DNA of 44,510 bases from Deltaproteobacteria bacterium (GTDB lineage: Bacteria > Desulfobacterota > Dissulfuribacteria > Dissulfuribacterales > UBA5754). Shown here piece by piece: positions 7,072 to 36,497 of this stretch; position 1 is the stretch's first letter, and each line of letters begins with the position of its first letter. The DNA lies in assembly GCA_036574075.1 (NCBI GenBank), contig JAINCN010000050.1:1-44510 (forward strand), written 5' to 3'. The notes beneath the pieces are model-generated. The model saw only the letters and a program-made list of their open reading frames with translations, was not told the origin of the DNA and did not search any database. A program made the position numbers and the translations under genes.

Positions 7072-8775
7072 ATGTCCTATCTCGTCCTGGCCCGCAAATG
7101 GCGACCGCAGACCTTCGAGGAGGTCATCGGACAGGGACATGTCACCCGGACCCTCCAGAACGCCCTGAAAAACCATCGCCTCGCCCACGCCCTCCTCTTC
7201 AGCGGCCCCCGCGGCGTGGGCAAGACCTCGGTGGCAAGGATCCTTGCCAAGGCCATCAACTGCGGCCAGGGGGACGGGAAAAACCCATGCAACGCCTGCG
7301 AGATCTGCCGTGAGATCACGGCCGGCACGTCCATGGACGTCTTCGAGATCGACGGGGCCTCGAACCGCGGGATCGACGAGATCCGCCAGCTCAGGGAAAC
7401 CGTCCGGTTCATGCCGGTGCGTTGCACCAGCCGGGTCTATATCATCGACGAGGTCCACATGCTCACAAAGGAGGCATTCAACGCCCTGCTGAAGACCCTC
7501 GAGGAACCCCCGGCCCACGTCTTTTTCATCTTTGCCACGACCGAGCCCAACAAGGTCCTCTCCACGATCCATTCCCGGTGCCAACACTTTGGCTTTCGAA
7601 GGCTCCGGACCCGGGAACTCGCCGATCACCTTTTGAAGATCGCCCAGGCCGAAGATATCCCCCTTGCGCCCGACGCAGCCGTGCTCCTCGCCAGGGAGGC
7701 CGAGGGCGGCGTCAGGGACGCCCTCGGCCTCCTCGACCAGGTAGCGGCCTTCGGGGCATCGACCGTCCAGGAGGTGAGCGAGGCCCTCGGGGTGACAACC
7801 ACCACAGCCCTCCAGGAGATCTCCCGGGCCATCCTCCTTGGAGACGCCCCGGCCGCCCTCCGTCTCGTCCAGGAGATCCACGACCAGGGCATCGACCTCC
7901 AGAAGTTCCTCGCCGACCTTGTCGGGTATTTCCGGGATCTTGCCGTCATTGCCACTATAGGGGCCGAAAAGGCCCTTCCCATCGTAGAAATCGCGCAGGA
8001 TGAGATCAAGGCCGTTGCCCGCGAGCTCTCAGGTCGCAGTCATCTTGATCTCGTTCAGCGCCTCGACGTCCTCGCAAGGGGGCAGGAATCCCTGTACAGG
8101 AGTTCCACGCCCCGCATCTCCCTCGAGATCCTCCTCATGCGGGCCTGCTCCATGGAAGAGGTCGTGGGTATCGACGCCCTGATCGAACGGATCGACGCCC
8201 TTGCTGCCGGGACGCTGAATCAGGCGGCCTTGCATCCTGCTGGAAACAGGGCCGTAACATTGCAAAAGACGCCATCAGAACCTGCACAACAGGTCCCTGA
8301 TCCCGAGATCTCCGGGGCCTGTCCGCACAGGGAGCTGTCTCCCAAGGCCCTGGACGAATTTCTCGCGTTCGTCAGGCCCCGAAAACCTCCCCTGGCCTCC
8401 CTGCTTGAGCACTGCTCTGAGCGGAAGACCGACGATGAAGCGGGCTCGATCACATGGATCTTTTCTTCCCCGTTCCACGCCGATCTCCTCCGGGAAAAGG
8501 AAAACGCGGCAAGCCTCGCCTCTCTCGCCCTATCCTTCTGGGGAAGACCCGTCGCCATGGTGATCCAGAGCGCCCCATCCGCTGAGAAGGATACCCCGGC
8601 CCCAGGCCCCTCTCCCCGGCAGGAACTCATCCAGAACCCCCTCGTGACCAGCGCCATGGAGGTCTTTCAGGCCCGGATCGCCGAGGTCACCCCCTTTTCC
8701 CCAAAAACGGGCAAACATCCTTCTGCAGGCGATCCCCCCCGGGCATCCAGGGATCCGTCAAGGTCAAAAGCCTGA
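7072..8775 (+). CDS. dnaX: DNA polymerase III subunits gamma/tau
   Basis: Clamp-loader ATPase of the replisome. The AAA+ Walker A GPRGVGKT is at 45-52, the zinc-binding cysteines at 64, 73, 76 and 79, followed by EIDGASNRGIDEIR. Walker B is VYIIDEVHML, the sensor 1 region is FFIFATTEPNKV, and SRCQ is the arginine-finger motif. Domain III follows (to about 365). The C-terminal 200 residues are Pro/Ala/Glu-rich with a weakly conserved tau-like part (LDEFLAFVRPRKPPLASLLEHC). At 567 aa it is normal for tau. I saw no A-AAA-AAG-type slippery site. The stop codon lies inside the end of a dispersed element (copy B), so the last residue and stop may be insertion-derived. ybaB and recR follow, the usual order. 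Confidence 0.96.
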   Translation: MSYLVLARKWRPQTFEEVIGQGHVTRTLQNALKNHRLAHALLFSGPRGVGKTSVARILAKAINCGQGDGKNPCNACEICREITAGTSMDVFEIDGASNRGIDEIRQLRETVRFMPVRCTSRVYIIDEVHMLTKEAFNALLKTLEEPPAHVFFIFATTEPNKVLSTIHSRCQHFGFRRLRTRELADHLLKIAQAEDIPLAPDAAVLLAREAEGGVRDALGLLDQVAAFGASTVQEVSEALGVTTTTALQEISRAILLGDAPAALRLVQEIHDQGIDLQKFLADLVGYFRDLAVIATIGAEKALPIVEIAQDEIKAVARELSGRSHLDLVQRLDVLARGQESLYRSSTPRISLEILLMRACSMEEVVGIDALIERIDALAAGTLNQAALHPAGNRAVTLQKTPSEPAQQVPDPEISGACPHRELSPKALDEFLAFVRPRKPPLASLLEHCSERKTDDEAGSITWIFSSPFHADLLREKENAASLASLALSFWGRPVAMVIQSAPSAEKDTPAPGPSPRQELIQNPLVTSAMEVFQARIAEVTPFSPKTGKHPSAGDPPRASRDPSRSKA

Positions 8776-23237: not shown

Positions 23238-23909
23238 CTACCTCGTAGGGGCAGCGGGGTTCCTGCCCTGAGCCGTAAGCCGGGAGCTGATGCGCGCAGC
23301 CTTTTCCGGTTCCATCAGCGCCAGCACTGATGCCACCTTTTTGCTTTTCATCCCCTCGAAAAGCCGTACGACAGTAGCTTCATCCATCTTTTCGAGAAGA
23401 ACGGCCGCCTTCTCTGGCTCCATGGCGCTGTAAACCCCTACGAGATGCTGAAAATTCTCTTCCTGCCGCTGGGTCCATTCCTGTGCGGCGCCCTTGAGAT
23501 CCTTTTGAAGCGCGTCAAGTTCCCGCATTCGTCCGGAGATCTCTTCCTCGAGGAGGCCAAGGGCCTTTTCCCGCTCGGCGATCCCGGCCTCCTGATCCGA
23601 AATCTGGCGTTCCCGGGCAAGAATAACGGAGAGGACATGGGGATGTATATCCCCTGCAGAGGAATCGGATGAAGAAGGGCCCCCTTTCTCCCCGGACCGT
23701 TGACCTTCCCCTTCTGCCGGACCGGAAACGGAGTCCTTCGCAGATCCCGCTACGGATAGAGAAGGGACGAAATCCATCAGGACGAGGCCGGCAAGAAGGA
23801 TCTTGATGCATCCGGCGGCAAGTAGGAGCCTGGCCACCCCCAGAAAGGATCCGCGCCTACGACCGCCTTTGCCGCCGCTTAGAGACATGTCTGATGATGG
23901 CGAATTCAT
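23238..23909 (-). CDS. motE: MotE-like flagellar protein (MgtE intracellular N-domain type)
   Basis: Probably the MotE/MotC-chaperone-type protein found at the end of fliJ operons. It has a basic N-terminus, one membrane helix (FLGVARLLLAAGCIKILLAGLVLMDFV), an acidic/serine-rich linker, a coiled coil (EKALGLLEEEISGRMRELDALQKDLK) and a C-terminal helical domain with the repeated pattern MEPEKAAVLLEKMDEATVVRLFEGMKSKKVASVLALMEPEKAARIS, as in MgtE_N/MotE. The ATG at 23909 has AGAGGGA six bases upstream and overlaps fliJ. It is the last gene of the flagellar operon. The symbol is by family resemblance. Confidence 0.8.
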   Translation of the reverse strand: MNSPSSDMSLSGGKGGRRRGSFLGVARLLLAAGCIKILLAGLVLMDFVPSLSVAGSAKDSVSGPAEGEGQRSGEKGGPSSSDSSAGDIHPHVLSVILARERQISDQEAGIAEREKALGLLEEEISGRMRELDALQKDLKGAAQEWTQRQEENFQHLVGVYSAMEPEKAAVLLEKMDEATVVRLFEGMKSKKVASVLALMEPEKAARISSRLTAQGRNPAAPTR

Positions 23910-24312
23910 CCGCTTCCCTCTGCATCCTTTCCCGCTCTTCATGCTCATACCTCACCTGTTCACGGGCCATCAAACGCTCCACGACCTGGGCGGACCTTTT
24001 CCTTTCTACCAGGGCCAGCCGCGCAGCCTCGACCTCATCCTTCGACCTGACGATCTCCGTTTCGGCATGGGCGCACGCTTCCTCGAGAAAATGGATACGG
24101 TCGACCATTATCAAATAATCTTCAGCCGGGATTCCGCGGAGCATGGCGTCTGCACAGGCCGTTTCGATACGCCGGCGCTCTTCTTCCACCGCGGCCCGCC
24201 GACGGTCCCAGTACCTCAATATCTCCAAGGCCCGTGAAAAGGACGACTCGGCTAGCTCGAGTTCCCGCTGCCGCAGGCGAAGAAGCCTCTCAAGGCGGAA
24301 TCGGAACGCCAC
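23857..24312 (-). CDS. fliJ: Flagellar export chaperone FliJ
   Basis: A 151-aa, almost entirely helical coiled-coil protein (FRFRLERLLRLRQRELELAESSFSRALEILRYWDRRRAAVEEERRRIE...), rich in Arg and Glu, as for FliJ. It acts with FliI and FliH at the flagellar type III export gate. The family is weakly conserved, so identification rests on the coiled-coil pattern, length and position directly after fliI (3-bp gap). Confidence 0.85.
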   Translation of the reverse strand: MAFRFRLERLLRLRQRELELAESSFSRALEILRYWDRRRAAVEEERRRIETACADAMLRGIPAEDYLIMVDRIHFLEEACAHAETEIVRSKDEVEAARLALVERKRSAQVVERLMAREQVRYEHEERERMQREADEFAIIRHVSKRRQRRS

Positions 24313-24315
24313 ACC

Positions 24316-25629
24316 TCACCCCTGGAAAAGATCGATGAGGCCGCGAATGCTCTCTTCAAGAGACGCCCTCTGCTCCGGCTCCTGGGCGAGAAACCCCTTG
24401 ACCTGCTGGATCTTTCTCACAGCGAAATCTATGTCTGGATTCGTCCCCTTCACGTACGCGCCCAGATTGATGAGGTCTTCCGCCCGCTGATAGGCCGCAA
24501 GCACCTTGACGAGGGAAGAAGCGGCGGCGATCTGGCCGGGGGCTGCGATGTCCCGCATGACCCTGCTCACGCTCGCAAGGATGTCGATGGCAGGATAGTG
24601 CCCTTGCTGGGCCAGCTCCCGCCTCAGCACGATGTGGCCGTCCACGATGGAGCGAACCGCGTCGGCGATAGGTTCGTTCATGTCATCCCCTTCCACAAGC
24701 ACGGTGTAGATGCCGGTGATGCTCCCGGCGTCTGACTTTCGGCCTGCCCGTTCAAGAAGCCTGGGAAGCTGGGAGAAGACCGTCGGCGTGTACCCCCGGG
24801 AGGTTGGAGGCTCCCCGATGGCAAGCCCCACCTCCCTGTACGCCATGGCGAAACGGGTGAGGGAATCCATCATGAGGATGACATCCTGACCCTGGTCGCG
24901 GAAGTACTCCGAAACGGCCGTGGCGAAAAAGGCGCCCCTGATCCGAATAAGAGGCGGCTGATCGGAGGTAGCGATGATGACGACGGAACGGGCAAGCCCT
25001 TCCTCCCCCAGGTCCCGTTCAATGAAATCCATGAGCTCCCGTCCCCGCTCCCCGATGAGGGCGATCACGTTCACATGGGCAGTAGTATGGCGGGCGATCA
25101 TGCCGAGAAGTGTGCTCTTGCCCACCCCGGATCCGGCCATGATCCCGATGCGCTGCCCCTTTCCCACGGTGAGACAGGCGTTGATCGCCTTTACCCCCAC
25201 GTCGAGGGGGCTTGTGATGCGGGGGCGTTCCATGGGATTCAGCGGCTCGGTGTAGAGGGGGCGCGAATCCCCGAGGACAAGGGGCCCCTTTCCGTCGATG
25301 GGGTGTCCGAGGCCGTCCAAAATTCTTCCTTTGAGGGCATCCCCGACCCTGGCCTCCGCCCTCTCCGACACGGCCCAGATCCTTCCGCCCGGCTCTATCC
25401 CCCTCGTGTCCCCGTAGGGCATGAGGAGGATTTCCCTCTCTCGAAAACCCACCACCTCCGCCGGGATCGTCCCATGCGCCCCGCGTTCGATGGTACAGAG
25501 GCCTCCGATGGACACCGCAGGCCCAGAGCCCTCGACCACCATGCCGATCACCTGGTTCACCGTGCCGCAAGGCCTGATTACCTTGATCCCCTCGATGGAT
25601 GCGAGATATGGAGAAAAATCCAGATTCAT
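24316..25629 (-). CDS. fliI: Flagellum-specific ATPase FliI
   Basis: Export ATPase related to F1-beta. The Walker A motif is GSGVGKST (within RIGIMAGSGVGKSTLLGMIARHT), with ERGRELMDFIERDLGEEGLARSVVIIATSDQPPLIR following. Walker B is DVILMMDSLTRFAMAYREVGLAIGEPPTSRGYTPTVFSQLPRLLERAG, a near-invariant FliI stretch. The N-terminal beta barrel domain and the C-terminal GHYPAIDILASVSRVM are in place. At 437 aa it is full length. It overlaps fliH by 4 bp. Confidence 0.97.
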   Translation of the reverse strand: MNLDFSPYLASIEGIKVIRPCGTVNQVIGMVVEGSGPAVSIGGLCTIERGAHGTIPAEVVGFREREILLMPYGDTRGIEPGGRIWAVSERAEARVGDALKGRILDGLGHPIDGKGPLVLGDSRPLYTEPLNPMERPRITSPLDVGVKAINACLTVGKGQRIGIMAGSGVGKSTLLGMIARHTTAHVNVIALIGERGRELMDFIERDLGEEGLARSVVIIATSDQPPLIRIRGAFFATAVSEYFRDQGQDVILMMDSLTRFAMAYREVGLAIGEPPTSRGYTPTVFSQLPRLLERAGRKSDAGSITGIYTVLVEGDDMNEPIADAVRSIVDGHIVLRRELAQQGHYPAIDILASVSRVMRDIAAPGQIAAASSLVKVLAAYQRAEDLINLGAYVKGTNPDIDFAVRKIQQVKGFLAQEPEQRASLEESIRGLIDLFQG

Positions 25630-26516
25630 TTTGCCTTGCCGACGCCACCCGCCCGATTTTGATCCCAGACAAGCCCGGAGGCAGGCCCGGCAAGACGCTC
25701 TGCCATGACCCGCAATATGTCATCCGAGATGACGCGCCACCTGCCTTCCATGGTGGCGTCGATGGAACCGAAGGGTGTCTCAGCGAAACACCCGCCGGGC
25801 TCGACTGAGACGTCCGGCAGGATGGTGATGGGGTGACCACCAGGTGCAGATTCACCCTTGATCGCCATGGCATCTCGGACACGGTCCGCGTCCGATGGAG
25901 AGAGATGGAGCGTGACAGGGCTACCTGCTGTGATCTCCGCAAGGGCGGCCTGGACCGCGGTGATCACGACATCAGGGTCAATGGATATCTCCCGCAGGAC
26001 AACGGCCTTGGCTGCAGTAAGGGCAAGGCGCACGATTTCCACCTCGTATCTGGCAGCAAGCCCCTCGCCGGCCTTTCGGATCCCTTCCACGACCCGGTCG
26101 AGATGCTCGGCCCGCGCCTCGTACTGACGTCGGCCCATTTCCTCGCCGTCTTTTCTTCCCTGCGCAAACCCACGCTCGTAGGCCTCGTTCTCTATTTCAT
26201 CGGCCTTGCGCCGGGCCTCCTCGAGGATCCTGTCCGCCTCCCTTAAAGCCTCTTCGAGCCTTATGTCCCTTTCATCCTTCTCCAGCGGGATGCCAGGGGA
26301 GGATGCATCCCCCTCCTCACGGTTAAGATCCATGGAGGGGTCCTTCCGCCCCCCCTGTCCACAGAGGCCGAAACCTGCCAGGACATGGGGAGATAATGGG
26401 CGAAAGTCCCGGTCGAAGCAGGTTGCAGCCTTCTCGCCCCGGCCCTTTTCCCGGCCGAGCCCTTCTTCAAAGGCGGGAAATACTGCGGGACGGCCCATTC
26501 CCTTAGACAAAGACAT
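25626..26516 (-). CDS. fliH: Flagellar assembly protein FliH
   Basis: Regulator/stator of FliI. The start ATG at 26516 gives 296 aa (MSLSKGMGRPAVF); the frame is open further upstream, but that part is fliG antisense. The N-terminal 100 residues are low-complexity and acidic. A coiled coil follows (DERDIRLEEALREADRILEEARRKADEIENEAYERGFAQGRKDGEE), ending in the family GxxxG-like segment. The C-terminal domain (EIVRLALTAAKAVVLREISIDPDVVITAVQAALAEI, then LHLSPSDADRV) is V-ATPase E-subunit-like. It overlaps fliG by 14 bp. Confidence 0.88.
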   Translation of the reverse strand: MSLSKGMGRPAVFPAFEEGLGREKGRGEKAATCFDRDFRPLSPHVLAGFGLCGQGGRKDPSMDLNREEGDASSPGIPLEKDERDIRLEEALREADRILEEARRKADEIENEAYERGFAQGRKDGEEMGRRQYEARAEHLDRVVEGIRKAGEGLAARYEVEIVRLALTAAKAVVLREISIDPDVVITAVQAALAEITAGSPVTLHLSPSDADRVRDAMAIKGESAPGGHPITILPDVSVEPGGCFAETPFGSIDATMEGRWRVISDDILRVMAERLAGPASGLVWDQNRAGGVGKAK

Positions 26517-27540
26517 CGCCTCCTCCCTTTGCGCCAAGAACGATCTTTCCCTCGCTTTCGAGGCGCTTGGCCACCTTGATGATGGCCTGCTGGGCCTGCT
26601 CCACCTCCCTGAGACGTACAGGCCCCATGACCTCCAGATCCTCCCGGAGCATCTGGGATGCACGTTCCGACATGTTGCGGAAAAACTTCTCCTTCAGCTC
26701 CTCGGGCGCGGCCTTGAGGGAGAGCTTCAGCTCCTCGGTGCTGATCTCCTTCAGGATCTGGATGATTGCCCTATCGTCCACCCCGAGGAGATCCTCGAAC
26801 TTGAACATGAGCTTTCGGATCTCCTCGGCGAGGGGCTCGGAATTCTCCTCGATCTTCTCGAGCAGGCTTTCCTCAAGACTCCTATCCACGTTGTTAAGGA
26901 TCTCCGCCACCTTGACCGCCCCGCCCACGCGTTGGACATCGCTCATCTCGACGGCAAAAAGCTCATTTTCCAGGACCCGATCGATTTCTGCGATGATATC
27001 CGGGCTGATCTTTTCGAGATTGGCGATCCTCATCATGACCTCCCCCTGCATGGCCTCGGGAAGCTCACGCAGGATTGCGGCAGAGAGATCCGGCTCCAGA
27101 TGGGCAAGAATCACTGCGATGGTCTGGGGATGCTCGTTCCTCAGAAAATTCATGATGACCTTGGGTTCGAGACCGCTGAGCTTCTTGAAGGTGGACGGGT
27201 GGAGCTGCCGCATGATGTCTTCGTAGATCCTTTGGGCCTGCTCCTCTTGCATTGAGGAAAAGAGGACCTTTTTGAGAAACTCCTCGATGGATACAGAGAC
27301 CCCGCCCTGCACGAGTGACATCTTTTCTCGCACCTCCCCAAGGACCTTCTGGACCGCATCCCCTGGAATGCTCTCGATTCGGGCCATGACCGAAGACACC
27401 TGCCTCACCTCGCTCTCGCTTAGGTAACGAAACACGTCAGCAGTAAAGGCCTCACCCATGGTCATGAGAAAGACCGCGGCCTTTTCCACACCCTTGGGGT
27501 CGGAAAGATCTATGGTCTCACGAGGTAGCGCTTTGGCCAT
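26503..27540 (-). CDS. fliG: Flagellar motor switch protein FliG
   Basis: C-ring protein that takes torque from MotA. The N-terminal, middle and C-terminal armadillo-type domains are seen: KAAVFLMTMGEAFTADVFRYLSESEVRQVSSVMA, then the EHPQTIAVILAHLEPDLSAAILRELPEAMQGEVMMRIANLEKISPDI hallmark. The C-terminal charged face is FEDLLGVDDRAIIQILKEISTEELKLSLKAAPEELKEKFFRNMSERASQMLREDLEVMGPVRLREVE. At 345 aa it is normal. It overlaps fliF by 23 bp. Confidence 0.97.
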   Translation of the reverse strand: MAKALPRETIDLSDPKGVEKAAVFLMTMGEAFTADVFRYLSESEVRQVSSVMARIESIPGDAVQKVLGEVREKMSLVQGGVSVSIEEFLKKVLFSSMQEEQAQRIYEDIMRQLHPSTFKKLSGLEPKVIMNFLRNEHPQTIAVILAHLEPDLSAAILRELPEAMQGEVMMRIANLEKISPDIIAEIDRVLENELFAVEMSDVQRVGGAVKVAEILNNVDRSLEESLLEKIEENSEPLAEEIRKLMFKFEDLLGVDDRAIIQILKEISTEELKLSLKAAPEELKEKFFRNMSERASQMLREDLEVMGPVRLREVEQAQQAIIKVAKRLESEGKIVLGAKGGGDVFV

Positions 27541-29134
27541 CCTTCAGCCCCTTGGAAGATTCGAGCCCTTCACGCAGCCATATCTTCACGAGGGCGGCGG
27601 CGCGCTCGGGATAATCACTTGCGATATCCCGGAGTTCCTTGCGTGCGTCGGGCAGATGTTCAAGGGCGGCAGCCCCGCCAGCCTCGAGGGCCTCCGCCCC
27701 TGCCTGGGAGATAGCCAGATCCGCGGCCTGCTCGCCTCGGCCGCGCACAAACCGCTCTATAAGCGGCCGGATGACAAAGACGATGAAAAGGATCGCAAGA
27801 ACGAGGTTCACGAACGGCTTGACGTACCTTCCCCCCACCTCAGCCACCTGGGAAAACGTGCTCTTGGGCTCATTGGAGCGGACCGTGAACGGTACGTTCA
27901 CCACACTCACCTCATCGCCCCGCTCCCGGCTGAACCCCATGGCCGCCTTGACGATCCTCTCGAAATTGGCCATCTCCTCGGGCGAACGAGCAGCATACAC
28001 GGATTGGCCGTTCTCCAGCTTGTAGGTCCCATCTACGAGCACACCGACAGACAGGCGCTTGATCGTTCCTTGCGCCCCACTCACCTGACGCTGGATTCGG
28101 GAGATCTCGTAATTGGTCGTCTCCTGCCTCCGTTGGCGCGTATTCCCGGTTGCAGTGGCCTGTCCGGCATTACCCTGGAGCTTGTCGGCAAGCCCTCCCG
28201 TGACCCCTGGAATACCGCCGGTTCCGCCCGCCATATCGGTCTCGAATTGCTTCTGCTCGCTCCTGACTACGCTCTCGTCCGGATTAAACCGGTCCTCGCT
28301 CACCTGGACCTGGTCGAAATCCAGATCCGCAGAGACGCGGACCACGGATTTAGCGGCCCCAAGGACGTTGTCGAGCATGCTCTGGATCTTCTGGCGGACA
28401 TGCTCTTCGAGTTGTTTCCTGTAGGCGAGCTGGGAAGCAGTGAGGCCCTGAAGATCACCGCCCACAGACCTGTCACCGGAGAGGAGCTCGCCTGTGGTAT
28501 CCACCACCGAGACCCTATCCTTGGAAAGCCGGGGGACGGAGCTGGAGACCAGATGCACGATCCCATTCACCTGGCTATGGGTGAGTTCTTGCCCTGGTTT
28601 GAGGTCGAGGACCACTGACGCCGTAGGATCCTTGCTGTCCGAAAGGAAAAGGGATTCCCTGGGCTGGGCGATATGGACCCTCACGGCCTTTACCTGTGGG
28701 AACCGGGAGATCGTCCGTTCGAGCTCACCCTGGAGGGCCCGCTGGTACTGGACGTTCTGAACGAAATCGGTCGCCCCGATGCTGGTCTTGTCAAAGATCT
28801 CGAATCCGATGCCGCTGCCCTTTGGAAGCCCGGCCCCGGCGAGCTCGAGCCGAATGTCATACACGCGGTCTTCCGGGACCTGGATGGCGCCCCCTCCCTG
28901 TGAGATCCGGTAAGGATAACCGGCTGCCTTGAGCCAAGAGACCACAGCAGCCGCGTCCTCCGGGGCGAGGTCGGCATAGAGGGTCCGGTATGTCACGCTG
29001 TTGACGAAGAAAAAGAGGGCGGCAAAGGATGCGAGCGCCGCTGCAGCAACACCGCCTGCCACAAGCTTTTGGCGAAGGGAAAGCCCCGCTACCATCCTTT
29101 TTGTCTGGGAGAAGATCTCTGCTGGGGTAGGCAT
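27518..29134 (-). CDS. fliF: Flagellar MS-ring protein FliF
   Basis: Membrane ring that seeds the basal body. An N-terminal membrane helix (KLVAGGVAAAALASFAALFFFV) is followed by the YscJ/FliF domain (TYRTLYADLAPEDAAAVVSWLKAAGYPYRIS ... YQRALQGELERTISRFPQVKAVRVHIAQPRESLFL). A periplasmic RBM3-like part follows (GEVDTTGELL in outline, then RVSADLDFDQVQVSEDRF). The second membrane helix (VKPFVNLVLAILFIVFVIRPLIERF) precedes a cytoplasmic tail that binds FliG. At 538 aa it is normal. It is separated from fliE by a dispersed repeat. Confidence 0.96.
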   Translation of the reverse strand: MPTPAEIFSQTKRMVAGLSLRQKLVAGGVAAAALASFAALFFFVNSVTYRTLYADLAPEDAAAVVSWLKAAGYPYRISQGGGAIQVPEDRVYDIRLELAGAGLPKGSGIGFEIFDKTSIGATDFVQNVQYQRALQGELERTISRFPQVKAVRVHIAQPRESLFLSDSKDPTASVVLDLKPGQELTHSQVNGIVHLVSSSVPRLSKDRVSVVDTTGELLSGDRSVGGDLQGLTASQLAYRKQLEEHVRQKIQSMLDNVLGAAKSVVRVSADLDFDQVQVSEDRFNPDESVVRSEQKQFETDMAGGTGGIPGVTGGLADKLQGNAGQATATGNTRQRRQETTNYEISRIQRQVSGAQGTIKRLSVGVLVDGTYKLENGQSVYAARSPEEMANFERIVKAAMGFSRERGDEVSVVNVPFTVRSNEPKSTFSQVAEVGGRYVKPFVNLVLAILFIVFVIRPLIERFVRGRGEQAADLAISQAGAEALEAGGAAALEHLPDARKELRDIASDYPERAAALVKIWLREGLESSKGLKDGQSATS

Positions 29135-29270: not shown

Positions 29271-29564
29271 TCAGAACTGCATCCGCATGATCTCCTCATA
29301 GGCCCCTATGACCTTGTTCCTGGCCTGCACGAGGAGCTTCAGGGAGAGGTCCGCCTTAGCGGATGCGATGACCTTGGCAGAGAGGTCCACGGGCTCGCCT
29401 GCTGCACTTCTGGCGGCCAGATCCTGGGCAGAGAGGATCTCTTGGTTCACGGACCGCAGCCCCCTTTCAAGGGCCTCGTAAAAGCCGCCGCCCTGAGCCT
29501 TTTGCCCGTTTGGGGCCTTCATGGCCGCGCTTGCGGCTGAAGCAGAATCAATCGACGTGATCAT
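29271..29564 (-). CDS. fliE: Flagellar hook-basal body protein FliE
   Basis: A 97-aa adaptor between the MS ring and the rod. The ending VIASAKADLSLKLLVQARNKVIGAYEEIMRMQF is the diagnostic FliE C-terminus, preceded by FYEALERGLRSVNQEILSAQDLAARSAAGEPVDL. It lies 11 bp downstream of flgC, the common order flgB-flgC-fliE. Confidence 0.95.
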   Translation of the reverse strand: MITSIDSASAASAAMKAPNGQKAQGGGFYEALERGLRSVNQEILSAQDLAARSAAGEPVDLSAKVIASAKADLSLKLLVQARNKVIGAYEEIMRMQF

Positions 29565-29575
29565 GGAGTATCACC

Positions 29576-30046
29576 TCACTTTCCGATCTCGAGTGTCTTC
29601 AAGGCCATGGCCTTTGCGGTCTCAATGGCCGTGAGGTTCGCCTCGTAGGCCCGGGCCGCGGTCATGATATCCACCATCTGTTCCATGACGTTCACGTTAG
29701 GTAACCTGACGATGCCCTTTTCATCCGCGTCCGGATGCCCCGGGTCATAGACCTCGCGAAACGGCACCGGATCCTCCACGATCCCCGCAACCCGCACCTC
29801 TTCCAGATCCGACCCGCTCTCTCCGTCCACAGGAAAGACCGCAGGCAAGAGATAGGCCCCGAAAGACGCCTCCCTGTCTGGGCGATGTGGGGCCGAGGCG
29901 AAGATGACGGATCTCGCCCGGTAGGGACCGCCGTCGATGGTCCGGGTCACGTGGGCATTTGCCAGGTTCATCGCGGCCACGTTGAGCCTGGTCCTTTCCG
30001 CAGAAAGCCCGCTGGCTGCGATGGAAATGGCGGTAACGAAACTCAT
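29576..30046 (-). CDS. flgC: Flagellar basal-body rod protein FlgC
   Basis: Proximal rod subunit, 156 aa. The N-terminal rod motif is AISIAASGLSAERTRLNVAAMNLANAHVTRT, and the C-terminal motif NVNVMEQMVDIMTAARAYEANLTAIETAKAMALKTLEIGK. The middle has VRVAGIVEDPVPFREVYDPGHPDADEKGIVRLPNV, as in FlgC. It overlaps flgB by 4 bp. Confidence 0.96.
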   Translation of the reverse strand: MSFVTAISIAASGLSAERTRLNVAAMNLANAHVTRTIDGGPYRARSVIFASAPHRPDREASFGAYLLPAVFPVDGESGSDLEEVRVAGIVEDPVPFREVYDPGHPDADEKGIVRLPNVNVMEQMVDIMTAARAYEANLTAIETAKAMALKTLEIGK

Positions 30047-30480
30047 ACCTTGCCTCCTTCAGTAATGGCAGTCTTGAGCATGTCGAGCTCCTTTATAAGG
30101 GACTGGACCGTGGACTGGAACTCCAGGTTGTTGAGGGCGAGCTCCACCATCTCCCGGTCGAGATCCACGCTGTTGGGTGTCCCCCTCTCCCTTGGGGTGA
30201 TATCGGAAATCGCACACCCCTCTGTCAGAGATCCGGATCCCATGGTGACGGTTGCCGCGCGCCTCGGATCCGGGATATGACCGGCCTGCGTGACGCGAAG
30301 CCCCCCTTGTTTTCCGTTTTCAAGATAGCGGCTCATGACCTCCTGGAACGGGATATCCTTTGCCCTGTAGCCGGGTGTCTCGAGATTGGAGATGTTGGCT
30401 GCAAGGACCTCGTTTCTCTTTCCCCTCACGTAGAGGGCAGCCTTCAGGACCTCGAAGGTCCGTCCGAAAATCCCCTTCAT
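30043..30480 (-). CDS. flgB: Flagellar basal-body rod protein FlgB
   Basis: Proximal rod subunit, 145 aa. The start is FGRTFEVLKAALYVRGKRNEVLAANISNLETPGYRAKDIPFQEVM. The end, SVDLDREMVELALNNLEFQSTVQSLIKELDMLKTAI, is typical. AAAGGAG precedes the ATG by about 9 bases. It heads the compact rod/export run. A 75-bp gap separates it from the sigma-54 activator gene, in which I saw no convincing promoter. Confidence 0.95.
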   Translation of the reverse strand: MKGIFGRTFEVLKAALYVRGKRNEVLAANISNLETPGYRAKDIPFQEVMSRYLENGKQGGLRVTQAGHIPDPRRAATVTMGSGSLTEGCAISDITPRERGTPNSVDLDREMVELALNNLEFQSTVQSLIKELDMLKTAITEGGKV

Positions 30481-30555
30481 GGCGCAATCTCCTTTTGTGA
30501 TGCCGCGTGAGGCAAGTTGCTGGGAGGAATCATGATTCTCCCCTCATCTTTCATC

Positions 30556-31974
30556 TCAGGCCTTTTGATCGGAATCATATTCAAAGACCTTTTCATGACG
30601 ATCCATCTGTCGATATTCCGACAGTTTGTTGCGTAACGTCCTCACACTGATCCCGAGCAGTCTCGCTGCATGGGTCCGATTCCCGTTGGTGCGAGCAAGT
30701 GCCCGCCGGATCGTATCCTTTTCGAGGGCAGCGAGATCGAATTCACCTCCCGGCGCATCCTGACCATCACACGGATCGGTTCCGGCCGCTCGCTCCGGCT
30801 CCCCAGCGAGGAGGTCCTCCATGCCGATCACCGGACCCTGCGCAAGAAGCACGCCCCGTTCCATCATGTTCTTGAGTTCCCTCACATTCCCCGGCCAATC
30901 CCTGCGGGAAAGGCGATCGAGGACATCATTTGCAAATTTCAGGCCTGGCTTTCCATAAACATCGGCGAAATGTTCCAGAAAGCGCTGGGCGAGAAAAGGG
31001 ATGTCTTCTCGACGCTCCCTAAGGGGCGGAAGCCGCAAGGGGATCACGTTCAGGCGATAATAGAGATCTTCGCGGAATCTCCCTTCCCGGACCGCTGCGG
31101 CCATGTCCCGGTTGGTCGTCGCTATCACCCGGACATCCACTGGGATGGGCCCGCTTCCTCCGAGACGGTCCACCTCCCCCTCCTGGAGGACCCGAAGGAG
31201 TTTTGCCTGTAGGGGAAGGGCCATTTCCGTGATCTCGTCAAGAAGGAGGGTCCCCCCGTCGGCCCTCTCGAATCGTCCGATCTTTCGGGCAATGGCGCCG
31301 GAAAAGGCCCCCTTTTCGTGCCCGAAAAGTTCGCTTTCAAGGAGTGTCTCCGGAAGGGCGGCGCAATTGATGGCACAAAACGTTCCGTTCGACCGGTCGC
31401 TCTCCCGATGGATGAACCGGGCAAGGAGCTCCTTCCCTGTCCCGCTCTCCCCCTCGATGAGCACAGGGGCTGCGCTTCGGGCGACCTGGCGGGCACGGGC
31501 CATGACCTTCTCCATGGCCGGGCTATTCGTGAGGATCTGATGGCGGTCCGCGCCCATTCGATCCTTGATAGGCCTACCCAAAGGTCGGGCGTTTCTTCGG
31601 GCAAGGACCAGGACCGCATGGGAGGCGGCGTGCACCACGACCTCATCTGTCCAGGGCGGAAGGACGTAATCGACAGCGCCGCGCCTCATGGACGAGACCG
31701 CGTCCTCGATCCTGGGCTTAGAGGCAAGGACCACGATCCCGGCCTGAAGACCTTCCCGGTCCATGCGTTCGAAAAACCCGATGGCATCCATCCCTGCCTC
31801 AGGCTCATGGGCAAGGAGTACGATACATTTTCGGCCGGCTCGCAAGGCGACGGCAATCGCATCCAGGTCTCCGGCAAGGCTCACGTCGAATCCTGCCGCT
31901 CGCACTGCCCGACCCATCCGTGTCCGCTCCTCGTGGTCACGGGCGCATATGATGACCTTCACGTCCCCGCTCAT
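30556..31974 (-). CDS. Sigma-54-dependent activator with a degenerate receiver domain (FlgR/FleQ-type context)
   Basis: A 472-aa NtrC-family protein. The receiver-like region (1-115) lacks the phosphorylation set: the expected Asp is Ala55 (IVLLAHEP), the Thr position is Ala84 and the Lys position is Pro106 (VLPPW), with the acidic pair reduced to ARDHEE. The AAA+ domain is intact: ESGTGKE Walker A, CAINCAALPETLLESELFGHEKGAFSGA (GAFSGA instead of GAFTGA), GGTLLLDEI Walker B, and the R-finger region REGRFREDLYYRLNV. The C-terminus has a Fis-type helix-turn-helix (IRRALARTNGNRTHAARLLGISVRTLRNKL). It probably activates flagellar sigma-54 promoters. It lies 8 bp after the TPR gene and 75 bp before flgB. 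Confidence 0.93.
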   Translation of the reverse strand: MSGDVKVIICARDHEERTRMGRAVRAAGFDVSLAGDLDAIAVALRAGRKCIVLLAHEPEAGMDAIGFFERMDREGLQAGIVVLASKPRIEDAVSSMRRGAVDYVLPPWTDEVVVHAASHAVLVLARRNARPLGRPIKDRMGADRHQILTNSPAMEKVMARARQVARSAAPVLIEGESGTGKELLARFIHRESDRSNGTFCAINCAALPETLLESELFGHEKGAFSGAIARKIGRFERADGGTLLLDEITEMALPLQAKLLRVLQEGEVDRLGGSGPIPVDVRVIATTNRDMAAAVREGRFREDLYYRLNVIPLRLPPLRERREDIPFLAQRFLEHFADVYGKPGLKFANDVLDRLSRRDWPGNVRELKNMMERGVLLAQGPVIGMEDLLAGEPERAAGTDPCDGQDAPGGEFDLAALEKDTIRRALARTNGNRTHAARLLGISVRTLRNKLSEYRQMDRHEKVFEYDSDQKA

Positions 31975-31982
31975 CTGGATGC

Positions 31983-34178
31983 CTATGGCGTACCTGCGCC
32001 TGCGACTGGATCGTTCCAGGAGGGTCCCTTGCCCAGGCTTGCCATGATATCGTCCACCTCGGAGAAGGTCTTGGCGGCCTGGGCAAAGAGGGGATCCCCG
32101 GATGCGGAGAGCCGTTCCAGATCTTCCTTTGCCGGACCCGTAAGACCGAGCCGCCTCTTGGAAACGGCCCTTCGGACGAGCACTGACGGGGTCTTATCCC
32201 CATCCGGTACGGCCACATAGGCCTCGAGCGCCACATCCGGCTGTTTTCTGCGAAGGGCCTCGTCCCCCCAGAAAACAAGCAGATTGAACTGCTCTTTTCC
32301 GTCGCATTCGGCCTCAACGCCTTTCCAGAGACCCCGTGCGGCAGTCCAGTCCCCTATACGGACAGCTGCATCAAAGAGGCCTATGCGATCATCCTTGCCC
32401 ATTTCCTTAGCACCCTCGGCAAGGATTTCCCCCAGGAGCCCCCGGGCGCGTGCCTCTTCGCCCCGAGCCGCTGCGAGTCGGATCTCAGGCACGCGCATGT
32501 CAGGCCCTGCCTTGCGTGATCCCTCAGGAAGTTTTCGATAGAGGCGAAGGACGGCCTCGGCTGTTTCGAGATCCTGGACCTCGAGGGCCGTATCGACCCA
32601 GTCGCGGAAGAAGGATGCAGATGCACCCTGTTCGATCCCGCTGCTCCAGGCCGCATAAAACTCGCGAAGTGCGGCATGATCGCACCCCAATGTGTGCCAT
32701 GCCTTTCCGCACACGGCATGAAACCTGGGTGGCACCGGGCATCCGTCAGAGGCGAGGGAGGCGACTTCATTCAGGATATGGAGGGCCTTCCCCTCCCTGA
32801 GAAAGGCCTCAGCGCTTGTGATAAAGGCCTCGCTGGACACTGCCGCGGCCTGCCCGCTCTCGGCACTACCTGGCGCAACTCGTCCGAACTCGCAGGCCTC
32901 ACGGGCCGCAGCAAATCCATCACCGCGCGCGGCCATCGCCCCGATCTTCCTAAGCCAGGCGATCCGGACAAGACGGGCGGCCTCTTCCCCAAGGAGACCG
33001 GACGGAGGAGAGGTCAGAAAACGACGCCCCATCCCAGAGGGATCGGCAAAGAGATCTAATGGGGTCTGGGAACGGGAGAGGAGATCGCACGCCTCCCGCA
33101 CGAGACCCACTGCCTTTCCGGCTACCGGCTCCTTCGGCTGCTTTCCGGCGAGATCCTCGGCGCGCTCGGCCAATTCCTGAAGGCGGCCCTGCCCGAGAAG
33201 GACCCGCATGAGCTCCACCGCAGCCTCGCCTGCAAGGGGATGCCCAGGGTATCTTTCGAGGATCTTTCGAAAGACATCCTCCCCGATCTTTGGATCCTGG
33301 GGGAGGTTCCCGGTGACCTCAAGTAGAGAGGCGTGTTCGGCGCCCGCCATCTGGGCAAGGCGCATTGCGGAGAACAAGGACTCTGGGGTGTTTGGGAACC
33401 TATGCCGTATGATAGAATAGTATTTCCTCGCCTCAAGGGGCCGGGAGCTCCGCAAAAGGCCCTCCGCAACAGAAAAGAAGGCAGAGGCCTGCCATTGCTC
33501 GGTGGTGGAAAGATTCGCCAAACGTAGCCACAGCTGCCTGGCCCCTTCTTCGTCCTTTCGAAAGACCGCAAGCCGTGCCTTCAGGTCCTGAAGCAGGGGC
33601 ATGACCATTTCCATGTCCGGACGGGCGATCTCGAGTTTGGAGACCTCCCTTGCGATCGCCTCCCCCTTCCCTTCCTCCAGGGCCTTATGTGCGAGATATA
33701 TCCATGCACTCAAGGCAAGGACAGTGTCAGGATATTGACGGACACAGTCCTCGCATATCTCGTCGAACCTCACGGGTTCTTCGATCTCCTTAAGCAGGAT
33801 CAAGGCCGAGGTCGCCCATTCGCTTTCAGGGTGATCTGCCATGACGAGGCGGAGATAGGACCGGGCCTCGGGGAGAAATCCTGCCTGCGCATACGCCTCT
33901 CCCAAGAGAAAATAGACCTCGGCGGATCCGGGTTCTCCGTGAAGATACCTGGCTGCACGCAAAAGCAGCCCGACGTACGCGTCAAACGTGATCGCCGTCC
34001 GCCCATCCTGGCCCTTTTCCATGTAAAGGACATGGGCATTGCGGACGTCCTCCAAAAGCCCCTGCGGCGTGTCGGAGGATCCCGGCCCGGCTCCGGCTCC
34101 AGCCGGCGAAAACCCGATTGACACGGCAAGAAGGAAAAGGATACAACAAGAAGAATGTTTCACCATAGACGGAAACAT
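31983..34178 (-). CDS. Exported TPR-repeat protein of unknown function
   Basis: A 731-aa protein with a signal peptide (MVKHSSCCILFLLAVSIGFSPAGAGA, using the ATG at 34166 or 34178). No lipobox is certain. Helical repeats follow: SAEVYFLLGEAYAQAGFLPEARSYLRLVMADHPESEWA is a clear TPR pair, and QASAFFSVAEGLLRSSRPLEARKYYSIIRHRFPNTPESLFSAM another. The remainder continues with Sel1/TPR-like helices to DVALEAYVAVPDGDKTPSVLVRRAVSKRRLGLTGPAKEDLERL. It likely acts in the periplasm as a protein-interaction scaffold. It is the first gene of the flagellar run and carries an upstream sigma-54 promoter candidate. No precise family is recognised. Confidence 0.8.
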   Translation of the reverse strand: MFPSMVKHSSCCILFLLAVSIGFSPAGAGAGPGSSDTPQGLLEDVRNAHVLYMEKGQDGRTAITFDAYVGLLLRAARYLHGEPGSAEVYFLLGEAYAQAGFLPEARSYLRLVMADHPESEWATSALILLKEIEEPVRFDEICEDCVRQYPDTVLALSAWIYLAHKALEEGKGEAIAREVSKLEIARPDMEMVMPLLQDLKARLAVFRKDEEGARQLWLRLANLSTTEQWQASAFFSVAEGLLRSSRPLEARKYYSIIRHRFPNTPESLFSAMRLAQMAGAEHASLLEVTGNLPQDPKIGEDVFRKILERYPGHPLAGEAAVELMRVLLGQGRLQELAERAEDLAGKQPKEPVAGKAVGLVREACDLLSRSQTPLDLFADPSGMGRRFLTSPPSGLLGEEAARLVRIAWLRKIGAMAARGDGFAAAREACEFGRVAPGSAESGQAAAVSSEAFITSAEAFLREGKALHILNEVASLASDGCPVPPRFHAVCGKAWHTLGCDHAALREFYAAWSSGIEQGASASFFRDWVDTALEVQDLETAEAVLRLYRKLPEGSRKAGPDMRVPEIRLAAARGEEARARGLLGEILAEGAKEMGKDDRIGLFDAAVRIGDWTAARGLWKGVEAECDGKEQFNLLVFWGDEALRRKQPDVALEAYVAVPDGDKTPSVLVRRAVSKRRLGLTGPAKEDLERLSASGDPLFAQAAKTFSEVDDIMASLGKGPSWNDPVAGAGTP

Positions 34179-34241
34179 GTCTCTTTCCTTTCCTCCATTT
34201 TCCCCTTACGGACCATGCCGGTGGCTGCCTTCATCCATGTA

Positions 34242-34258
34242 TGCAAATTGGGCGCCAA
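34242..34258 (-). promoter_or_regulatory. Sigma-54 promoter candidate upstream of the TPR/activator/flagellar genes
   Basis: On the minus strand, TTGGCGCCCAATTTGCA contains GG and GC separated by exactly ten bases. It matches consensus TTGGCAC-N5-TTGCA except at about one conserved position. It would start transcription near 34231, about 55-65 bases before the TPR start codon. The downstream sigma-54 activator is consistent with it. No activator-binding site was identified. Confidence 0.65.
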
Positions 34259-34446
34259 ACGAAGAGCAGGCAGCGCATCTTCCGGCCTTGATTGCAGGTC
34301 CATCCCGTGATTCCATGGGATCATACTCAAGATCTTTTCTGTCCGATCATCCAGTGGCGCTCACTGAGATCTTCCGCGTCACACGACATTCAAAGTCACT
34401 TTTTTGACGATCCTGCCCGGACTGACATCACAAAAGGCACCTCGAC

Positions 34447-35256
34447 ATGGCTATGGACACCATCGGATTTGCCATCAAAAAGGCCGTATCGGCCGCGGTC
34501 ATGCCCTCCGGGGTCATCTTTCTCCTTCTCCTTGCGGGCCTCTTCTTCTGGCCCCTCAAGAGACGGCGGGCAGCTGCAAGAAACGCCTTTTTTCTGGCCT
34601 TTGTCATCTATGCGCTCGGGAGTTCCGGCCCGGTCTCATCCCTCCTGCTCATGGGGCTTGAGGCCCAGGTCCCGCGACAATTCCAGCCCAATCCCGCGGC
34701 CGCGGACGTTGTGGTGCTTTGCGGCGGCATCGTTTCGAGCGAAGTTCTCCCCCCTGAGGACCGCCTGACATGTCATACGCGCATGCGCGTCCTTGCCGGC
34801 GCCCGGATCTCTTCCACTGTTCCGGTCATTGAAAGGATGATCATTGTCGGCGGAACAAAGGAGGAAGAGGGTAAGGCCTATTCCGAGGCAGGGACCGCCC
34901 GGGAGTGGATCGAGGATATGGGGCTTGCCCCGCAGGTCGAGACCATCCTGCTCGAAAAGACCCGAGATACGGACGAAAACCTCGCAGCGGCCTCGCGGGT
35001 CCTCGCAGGAAGGCCCGCCTACCTGGTCACCTCCGCCCTCCACATACCCAGGGCCCTCATGATCGCCAAACGCCTCGGCATGGATGTCACGCCAGTCCCA
35101 TGCGACTACCTGGCATCCGGCATCTCGTGGTCCATCCGGGACCTCTGGCCGAGTCCCATCCGCCTTTATTACACAGACAGCGCCTGCCATGAATACCTCG
35201 GCATCGCCTGGCAGTTCCTGAAGGACGTCCCGGTAAGGCTTGCCCGTCTCTTTTGA
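34447..35256 (+). CDS. DUF218/YdcF (ElyC/SanA-like) membrane protein
   Basis: A 269-aa inner-membrane protein. Two helices (about 15-38 and 46-70, MPSGVIFLLLLAGLFFWPL and FFLAFVIYALGSSGPVSSLLL) precede the DUF218 domain: ADVVVLCGGIVSSEVLPPEDRLTCHTRMRVLAGARI, then MIIVGGTKEEEGKAYSEAGTAREWIEDMGL, TILLEKTRDTDENLAAASRVL and AYLVTSALHIPRALMIAKRLGMDV. E. coli ElyC is linked to envelope biogenesis (family knowledge). It is divergent from the TPR gene and starts a plus-strand run. Confidence 0.87.
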   Translation: MAMDTIGFAIKKAVSAAVMPSGVIFLLLLAGLFFWPLKRRRAAARNAFFLAFVIYALGSSGPVSSLLLMGLEAQVPRQFQPNPAAADVVVLCGGIVSSEVLPPEDRLTCHTRMRVLAGARISSTVPVIERMIIVGGTKEEEGKAYSEAGTAREWIEDMGLAPQVETILLEKTRDTDENLAAASRVLAGRPAYLVTSALHIPRALMIAKRLGMDVTPVPCDYLASGISWSIRDLWPSPIRLYYTDSACHEYLGIAWQFLKDVPVRLARLF

Positions 35257-35336: not shown

Positions 35337-36497
35337 ATGTCAGATACCGCCTTTCTCTCCATCACGGTCCTTCTTCTTCTCTGGATCCTCACCGCCTTCG
35401 CCCTGGTCCGTGCCCTCAAGAAAAAAAGGGATGGGGCTGACCAGGCCCCGCCCCCCTCCCTCGACCTCCTTCTCGGGCTCGTCTCCAAGGGGCGCGAAGA
35501 GGCCAAGGAGGCGGCCCGAAAGCTCAGCGAGGTCCTTGACGCCCTCGGCCTCGGACTCGTTGAGGTAACCGCAGGCGGCATCGCCGCCAACGCCTGCGCC
35601 CTTTCCCTATTGGGTGTCATGAGGCCCGAGGAGGCAGGCCTTCGGGAAATACTTGATTCCCTCTTGCCGAATGAACGGATGACCATCAGGGTTGAGGACA
35701 GGACCGTACAGATCACACGGATCAAGGACTCGGTCCAGGGTGGCGGCCTTCTCCTTGTACAAGACGTGACCAGGGCGGCAGAGGCAGAGCAGAGGATACG
35801 CCAACGGGAAAGACTCGCCCATCTCGGAAAGATGACGGCCCAGATGGCCCACCAGATGAAGACACACACTGCGATCCTCGCGGGCCGGGCCCAGCTCCTC
35901 GCCAGAGAACTCGAAGGCTCACCGGCGCTCAGGGAAAAGGCCAGGGAGATCTACACCGAGGCCCGGGAGCTCGCAGGCCGGATAGACGAGATCGTCTCGA
36001 TCTACAAGACGGACGGAAAGGCCAGGGAGACAGTCGGAATCGCAGACGTCCTCTACTCGGTCAGGAAACGGCTCGACAGCATGGAGAAGCCCTGCACGAT
36101 CACAGTAGAGGCGGCAGACGACCTGGTCGTCACAACCGACCGCGCTGCCCTCGAAAGCATCCTCTTTCTCCTCGGCCAGAACTCCCTCGCCGAGGAGGTT
36201 AGGGCCTCACAGGTCACCCTCTCGGCCCGGGAGGAAGGAGACAGTGTCGTCATCTCGGTCACTGACAACGGGGCCGGGATCCCCGCCTCCCTTCGGGATC
36301 GTATCTTTGAGCCTTTCACAGGGGAGAGCAAGGGGGGCCTCGGCCTTGGGCTCTTTCTCGCCCGGGACCTCGCAGAAAGGCTCGGCGGAGGGCTCAGGCT
36401 CATGGACGTGGAGAAAGGGACATCCTTCGGCCTCTTCCTTCCCCGTGTTACGGCCGCCCTGGAAACGTGTCCCTCGGCTCCTCTGGGAAGGCGATAA
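35337..36497 (+). CDS. Sensor histidine kinase (single TM, PAS-like region)
   Basis: A 386-aa kinase. One N-terminal helix (about 7-26) anchors it. A PAS-like segment follows (about 62-145, ending LLLVQDVTRAAEAEQR). HisKA follows, with the phospho-His at about 172 in GKMTAQMAHQMKTHTAIL, where the usual HEIRNPL is replaced by HQMKTHT. The HATPase domain has N box LLGQNSLAEEV, G1 VTDNGAGIP, F box IFEPFTGESKGGLGLG and G2 LFLARDLAERLGG. No periplasmic sensor is present, as in cytoplasmic FlgS/AtoS-type kinases. The nearest activator (31974) has a receiver without the phospho-Asp, so its partner is unclear. Confidence 0.9.
   Translation: MSDTAFLSITVLLLLWILTAFALVRALKKKRDGADQAPPPSLDLLLGLVSKGREEAKEAARKLSEVLDALGLGLVEVTAGGIAANACALSLLGVMRPEEAGLREILDSLLPNERMTIRVEDRTVQITRIKDSVQGGGLLLVQDVTRAAEAEQRIRQRERLAHLGKMTAQMAHQMKTHTAILAGRAQLLARELEGSPALREKAREIYTEARELAGRIDEIVSIYKTDGKARETVGIADVLYSVRKRLDSMEKPCTITVEAADDLVVTTDRAALESILFLLGQNSLAEEVRASQVTLSAREEGDSVVISVTDNGAGIPASLRDRIFEPFTGESKGGLGLGLFLARDLAERLGGGLRLMDVEKGTSFGLFLPRVTAALETCPSAPLGRR

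Follow-up and report, generated by a model that had tools for sequence, protein, structure and literature searches.

A 44,510-nucleotide stretch of DNA (hereafter the window) from a bacterium of the order Dissulfuribacterales (Desulfobacterota) carries, on its minus strand, a gene for a tetratricopeptide repeat (TPR) protein in front of a run of flagellar genes. We propose that this gene encodes a PflA-like spoke of the flagellar motor and heads a sigma-54-dependent operon, a reading to which we give a probability of roughly two in three (about 0.68). As we picture it, the TPR protein would be a periplasmic scaffold of the PflA/MotC/MotK kind, presumably needed for motility, that bridges the E-ring, with its FlgY/MotE-like protein encoded in the same window, and the stator zone. 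Its gene would be the first of a sigma-54-dependent operon that also holds an FlbD-like activator and rod, MS-ring, switch and export genes, and the neighbouring activator would switch on the TPR promoter. Since all of these would lie in one sigma-54-dependent operon, spoke, regulator and basal body would be made together.

The promoter site and the operon it would serve

The TPR gene and the activator gene lie 8 bp apart on the same strand (end at 31983, start at 31974), and flgB, flgC, fliE, fliF, fliG, fliH, fliI and fliJ follow on that strand. The open reading frame (ORF) coordinates bear out the original prediction, an earlier reading of the window from its sequence, which had placed the TPR gene 8 bp before the activator gene and upstream of flgB. 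The features are as follows.

34242..34258, minus strand: sigma-54-like promoter TTGGCGCCCAATTTGCA, GG-N10-GC; predicted +1 at 34231; score of at least 14 in 25 of 26 same-order loci
31983..34178, minus strand: TPR superhelix protein of 731 amino acids (aa), predicted to be exported, PflA-like spoke candidate without AMIN domain (ORF, Pfam, AlphaFold2 (AF2) model)
30556..31974, minus strand: sigma-54 activator, FlbD-like, AAA+ with GAFSGA, degenerate receiver-like N-terminal domain, Fis-type helix-turn-helix
30043..30480, minus strand: flgB (TIGR01396, 84.4 bits, cut-off 59.05)
29576..30046, minus strand: flgC (TIGR01395)
29271..29564, minus strand: fliE (Pfam)
27518..29134, minus strand: fliF (Pfam)
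26503..27540, minus strand: fliG (NCBIfam)
25626..26663, minus strand: fliH (all matches under curated cut-offs, the best being the FliH model)
24316..25629, minus strand: fliI (NCBIfam)
23857..24312, minus strand: fliJ (PF02050)
23238..23948, minus strand: FlgY/MotE/FlbB-like E-ring candidate with C-terminal MgtE_N domain (PF03448), adjoining fliJ
35337..36497, plus strand: sensor histidine kinase, divergent; L027, L032 and L047 have a homologue in the same divergent position ahead of the TPR gene

Within TTGGCGCCCAATTTGCA, GG lies at 34256-34255 and GC at 34244-34243, which gives the GG-N10-GC spacing of the -24/-12 consensus, and counting 12 bases on from the C of GC puts the predicted +1 at 34231. 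This count confirms the site at 34258-34242 and the start at about 34231 that had been predicted. The site is the top-scoring sigma-54-like 17-mer of the whole window (15.5; two others reach 14.5). The genome encodes RpoN (PF04552, 193 bits) and FliA, and the gene next to the TPR gene encodes an activator with a Sigma54_activat domain (239 bits). Across the genome (1.99 Mb) TGGCRYNNNNNTTGCW had 10 matches and a reversed control pattern also had 10; because the control is equally frequent, a lone match is weak evidence, and we rejected the ten matches as proof of a regulon. Another of the ten sits just before fliL (PF03748). A further one precedes an ORF of 659 aa, in the tested part of which Pfam found nothing, and farther on lies an ORF that matches the rod/hook family weakly (L178); that this is a fliK-hook operon is a guess. 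This genome also has a sigma-54-like site about 290 nt ahead of cydA, the gene for cytochrome bd oxidase subunit I (L060, G000:C24); the site may be there by chance.

The site recurs at the same place in relatives from the order, which is the only one of its class among the 46 genomes searched. When the regions upstream of the TPR gene were scored in 26 loci of the order, including the window, 25 reached at least 14, 23 reached 14.5 and 13 reached 15.5; random 300-nt segments from the same loci reached these values at frequencies of 0.033, 0.012 and 0.002, respectively. Taking the best locus per family, 10 of the 11 families of the order scored at least 14. Start codons were picked by hand so as to lie downstream of the site; this gives the site some advantage, and favours short leaders where several starts exist. 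A chance origin of the site was rejected on this conservation, and the phylogenetic footprint within the order supports the sigma-54 control that had been proposed.

The distance between site and start codon is also conserved in part of the order. In 13 of the 25 order loci with the site (L034, L036, L038-L046, L048 and L050), the chosen start follows the first base of the 17-mer at a distance of 29-34 nt, so that a leader of 2-7 nt and hence nearly leaderless TPR mRNAs are predicted; ten of these loci keep 31 or 32 nt though the sequence between differs (L039 and L042 excepted). For L041 the printed best site is an upstream one, tied at 14.5 with the site at 8656, and the latter was used for the count. 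Outside the order, L115, L127 and L130-L133 show 30-31 nt and four other loci for which it was computed show 62-112 nt; the predicted leader in the window itself is 53 nt. If real, a leader of 2-7 nt would tie translation of the spoke to the very 5' end of the transcript.

The 8-bp gap and the conserved gene order suggest that the TPR gene is co-transcribed with the genes behind it, in support of the predicted co-regulation with basal-body genes. A terminator scan of 29500-34700 gave 11 terminator-like matches, compared with 4.9 in shuffles, with six on the operon strand, none of these six in the 8-bp gap or in the space between activator and flgB; we read these matches as evidence neither way. 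RNA between activator and flgB folded no better than shuffles (z 0.08). A near-palindrome, GGGAGGAATCATGATTCTCCC, was seen in that space at 30522-30542.

One could also accept a motor scaffold and suppose that its gene is transcribed mainly from a sigma-70 promoter, the -24/-12 site being minor or decayed in this species. The window site indeed reads TGGCGC, with G where the order relatives other than L049 have A (consensus TGGCAC/T), and Campylobacter pflA has been reported outside the RpoN cascade (PMC11870540). However, the site is kept in 25 of the 26 order loci, similar sites accompany fliL and an apparent flagellar operon in this genome, and a scan of 29500-34700 gave no sigma-70-type match upstream of the TPR gene. 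We consider transcription mainly from a sigma-70 promoter quite improbable, and favour the sigma-54-dependent operon.

The TPR superhelix and its candidate E-ring partner

The TPR protein starts with a hydrophobic stretch, similar in its relatives and signal-like as judged by eye, in line with the predicted export, which would be via a signal peptide. Pfam finds TPR repeats only, some relatives having repeats of the YfiO type. For the window protein, AF2 modelling from a 22-row alignment gave an all-helical, long TPR superhelix (mean predicted local distance difference test score (pLDDT) 84.6); alignment A1 comprised 22 of the 26 same-order TPR genes, leaving out L042, a near duplicate, and the truncated L043, L044 and L046. 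When this model was searched with Foldseek, 9hmf_K came seventh and was the first bacterial chain (E 1.7e-8), and its query template modelling (TM) score of 0.36 was the highest among the best 50 matches listed. VIA-align, used as a second comparison, gave no 9hmf row among the 50 matches listed, which excludes nothing.

Relatives outside the order extend this likeness. The AMIN domain scored over the Pfam cut-off in two of the eight such relatives tested (L123 and L132). In the AF2 model of L132 (mean pLDDT 84.1), residues 39-138 form a nine-strand sandwich and 142-164 a disordered linker, with a TPR superhelix behind it, and the top Foldseek match of this model was 9hmf_K (E 7.1e-19), with the next row nearly five orders behind (4.3e-14). 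From its 773 residues, the match and the sandwich, the 9hmf_K chain is probably PflA, whose full length we take to be 788 aa. The entry 9HMF is the deposit of PMC12222027 for the periplasmic scaffold of the Campylobacter jejuni motor, and PflA is described there as a TPR superhelix, an unstructured linker and an N-terminal beta-sandwich; PMC11870540 likens this sandwich to AMIN domains. In a profile-profile comparison, the alignment between the window family and the TPR portion of the AMIN-bearing set spanned 602 columns with a probability of 100, a score of the kind that repeats inflate. The original prediction had spoken of an unknown periplasmic TPR factor: its TPR part stands, and "unknown" no longer does, as the protein fits motor spokes of the PflA/MotC/MotK type. 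Because the AMIN domain was looked for and is absent, we call the window protein PflA-like and not PflA; it would be an AMIN-less version of a PflA-type spoke, with a fixed address and sigma-54 control.

A candidate for the protein that such a spoke would bind lies in the same window. The ORF at 23238-23948, adjacent to fliJ, matches MgtE_N with 30.8 bits (cut-off 25.9), and an FlbB match falls below cut-off. Its relatives occur in 27 of 41 genomes (its own included), all of them FliG-positive, and G031 is the sole FliG-positive genome without a match. PMC13023049 identifies FlgY proteins of the E-ring by MgtE_N together with structure, mostly encoded next to fliJ, fliK or both, and gives FlgY-PflA, MotE-MotC/MotK and FlbB-FlcB as E-ring/TPR pairs. 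Since an MgtE_N ORF by fliJ matches the FlgY pattern paired with TPR partners, an E-ring protein and the TPR spoke that partners it are probably both encoded in the window.

The same genetic setting could be that of an assembly factor or periplasmic checkpoint, for instance a chaperone for rod, P-ring or stator parts, and not of a structural spoke. The TPR protein is encoded with a regulator and early rod and MS-ring genes, and helpers of the BamD, YbgF and CpoB type turn up in sequence searches with it, the matches covering one repeat or a few. However, the size of the relatives (full-length ORFs of roughly 610-1200 aa) and the AMIN-linker-TPR layout of L132 suit a spoke better, L132 finds the Campylobacter scaffold at first rank, and a FlgY-like partner gene is present. 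We regard an assembly factor as rather unlikely, and the PflA-like spoke as the better account of the gene.

Occurrence, linkage and the neighbouring activator

A search of 40 other genomes found relatives of the TPR protein in 27 of them, with identities of 19-38%, the 19% match (G032) being weak. Among the 41 genomes, the TPR gene and FliG were both present in 25 and both absent in 10; three had the TPR gene alone (G008, G014 and G032) and three FliG alone (G012, G015 and G036), an agreement of 35/41 (Fisher p 5e-5, kinship ignored). As for the six discordant genomes, the G032 match has E 4e-4 and no TPR match in the locus check, G008 and G014 are 88-89% complete, the contigs of G015 and G036 stop before flgB, and G012 holds an 832-aa ORF with weak TPR-family matches, below the search threshold, before kinase, activator and flgB. 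Over the phylum, all 53 genomes with a profile match (E<=1e-17) are flgB-positive, compared with 219 of 345 overall; the match in G125, counted among the 53, is to a short ORF that is unrelated. As expected of the PflA type, the TPR gene sits with flagellar genes and co-occurs with a FlgY-type protein. In G012 (L175) and G036 (L176) we observed a more divergent flagellar cluster (FliG about 40% identical) in a genus otherwise without FliG among the examined members; it was possibly acquired separately.

The place of the gene is also kept. Of the 25 wider regions of the order that contain the TPR gene (L026-L050), five end at a contig end just past it. An activator directly follows the TPR gene in 20/20 order loci with a visible neighbour, and flgB follows the activator in all 18 where the contig continues; L039 and L042, near copies, are within both counts. 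With the window included, the TPR-activator linkage covers 10 of the 11 families of the order, family f8 being cut by a contig end. The divergent histidine kinase upstream of the TPR gene in the window, L027, L032 and L047 may be a displaced form of the kinase that lies between TPR gene and activator elsewhere.

Beyond the order, 40 genomes had a profile match; we examined 38 of them, leaving out G162 and G189, of the same genus as G062 and G099. The order TPR-(histidine kinase)-activator-flgB is kept in 25 of these 38, so that the TPR-activator-flgB arrangement whose conservation the original prediction had made a check holds widely. The contig ends first in three loci (L116, L163 and L166), two have the activator and no flgB within the fetched stretch (L125 and L165), and L174, an unrelated short ORF, was counted as a miss. 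In 22 further flgB-bearing genomes without a strong profile match (one per family, from the upper part of the flgB list and not random), 14 show an ORF of the TPR type (245 to 1093 aa) in the expected place, one of them truncated by a contig end; Pfam found TPR repeats in 5/5 of those searched, below cut-offs in L148. Upstream of the TPR gene, 35 of the 36 outside-order loci in which that side is visible carry a second sigma-54 activator gene (L115-L134, L157-L162 and L165-L173; about 2 kb away in L124), and the pair is kept in family f50 though flgB is elsewhere. None was seen directly upstream of the TPR gene in the order loci, where the nearest is about 2.7 kb away (L039 and L042).

These distributions bear on the possibility that the gene encodes a general envelope TPR protein of the YbgF/BamD kind whose flagellar linkage is historical hitch-hiking. 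Pfam matches are to generic TPR repeats, and YbgF and BamD are the only NCBIfam models that match; both do so below cut-off and over short stretches, for which reason we rejected the gene as a YbgF or BamD homologue. Against hitch-hiking, the TPR gene is confined to flagellated genomes and its place is kept over 10 families of the order and beyond, and separate TPR ORFs of about 280 aa in these genomes would be the YbgF-like ones. We hold a general envelope protein to be very improbable.

The activator that accompanies the proposed spoke has, in addition to its Sigma54_activat domain, the AAA+ motif GAFSGA and a Fis-type domain. Its best NCBIfam match is FlbD, at 432.1 bits against a cut-off of 750, below equivalog level. 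In the window activator and 18 order relatives from the same type of cluster, alignment shows a receiver-like domain in which the acidic pair, the phosphoacceptor Asp and the Lys are all missing; 18 of the 19 have a His next to the position of the missing Asp. Within the order, the divergent second-type cluster of G012 (L175) departs from this: its receiver is intact, and a kinase gene lies between TPR gene and activator. Among 14 flgB-side activators outside the order, the three with a kinase between (L121, L126 and L127) are intact; of the 11 without a kinase, four are intact and seven are not. An FlbD-like flagella regulator with an atypical receiver, DVU1063, has been described in Desulfovibrio vulgaris (PMC3333781).

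Autoregulation of the TPR promoter by this activator is plausible. The FlbD-type operator GGCANNNNTGCC had 28 matches in the window with 25.5 expected, and near TPR promoters it occurred in 5 of 24 segments compared with 4.8 in the control, so that no enrichment was seen. Other top dyads near TPR promoters were mostly AT-rich, with coding-rich controls, and we draw no reading from them; no conserved operator for the neighbouring activator was found at the TPR promoters.

Several observations weigh against a PflA-like spoke whose gene heads a sigma-54 operon. Neither strands (AF2 model) nor an AMIN match (Pfam) were seen in the window protein, and it lacks the AMIN-like beta-sandwich of a PflA-type spoke; in C. 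jejuni, loss of the PflA AMIN domain abolished motility (PMC11870540). TM-scores to 9hmf_K are low (0.36 for the window protein and only 0.29 for L132, for which several unrelated TPR chains listed score higher), and TPR repeats are alike by fold. Sequence-profile searches of solved structures gave generic TPR matches only, among the 60 rows listed. L049 is the only one of the 26 order loci scanned that lacks the sigma-54-like site. Outside the order the promoter picture is mixed: a score of at least 14 was reached before 15 of the first 20 TPR genes, of which 12 are credible (L119 and L124 have no GG, and the L120 site lies within the coding start), and before 8 of the other 18, some inside ORFs, the random frequencies given above applying to 300-nt segments of the order loci. 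In family f50 (7 of the 38 outside-order loci) the TPR gene is away from flgB and keeps only the upstream activator, and 8 of the 22 flgB-bearing genomes without a strong profile match show no clear TPR ORF in the expected place. Finally, C. jejuni flgY, pflA and pflB are reported to be RpoN-independent, unlike the window operon (PMC11870540).

A wider version of the proposal would make the spoke gene the lead of the sigma-54 flagellar programme across much of the phylum, cotranscribed with its own activator in a self-amplifying circuit, near-leaderless in many lineages and, in the order, with an activator that has given up kinase-type input (degenerate receiver, conserved His by the lost Asp), as expected if assembly state, and not phosphorylation, controls it. 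Such a generalization seems doubtful to us; if true, the spoke protein would be the first product of a self-amplifying circuit.

Relation to known motor spokes and regulators

A scan of named genomes with the window TPR protein gave no match, and FliG found 27 loci in them, 26 at at least 67% identity, mostly labelled Deltaproteobacteria metagenome-assembled genomes. In the literature on the TPR, flagellar and PflA theme we recognised no paper for this Desulfobacterota gene, though the supplementary table of PMC11870540 may list such genes; on Geobacter, flagellar gene cluster, sigma-54 and FgrM, no paper was found joining three of these four. New here are the positional conservation, the sigma-54 promoter and the spacing that predicts near-leaderless mRNAs.

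The activator resembles FlbD of Caulobacter and DVU1063 of D. vulgaris (PMC3333781), which like it are sigma-54 activators with a receiver lacking phosphorylation residues; it differs in that the GGCAxxxxTGCC operator is not enriched upstream of window-type TPR genes and in that its FlbD score is under cut-off. The candidate E-ring protein shares with the FlgY/MotE/FlbB proteins of PMC13023049 the MgtE_N domain and the fliJ neighbour, and its role would be the same.

The TPR protein itself can be set beside several systems. MotC of Sinorhizobium meliloti and MotK of Cereibacter sphaeroides (PMC13023049, PMC10954123), which we liken to it by description, are TPR proteins with a MotE/FlgY-like partner; of the two, MotK is described with an AMIN domain and MotC, in this respect like the window protein, without. 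Their genes are located downstream of motB, or together with fliL2, motE and motA2, and do not head an flgB operon. Bdellovibrio bacteriovorus WP_011165745.1 (PMC5758724), also likened by description, is a long TPR protein with a signal sequence from a flagellar operon and has been proposed to be PflA-like; unlike the window protein, it has about 1000 aa of TPR and a transmembrane helix. With PflA of C. jejuni and Helicobacter pylori (PDB 9HMF; PMC12222027, PMC11870540) the window protein shares a putative signal peptide, signal-like by eye, and a long TPR superhelix, and its AMIN-bearing relative L132 has the whole layout of beta-sandwich, linker and TPR; it differs from PflA in lacking the AMIN domain or beta-sandwich.

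PflA-like spokes have been hard to find outside Campylobacterota because TPR repeats diverge. The fixed address before a sigma-54 activator and flgB, in the order and in many families of the phylum, would offer a simple way to find them, and TPR-activator-flgB operons could serve as a test bed for how complex motors get switched on. Placed in a sigma-54 operon with activator and flgB, the putative spoke gene would stand in contrast to the RpoN-independent spokes of C. jejuni.

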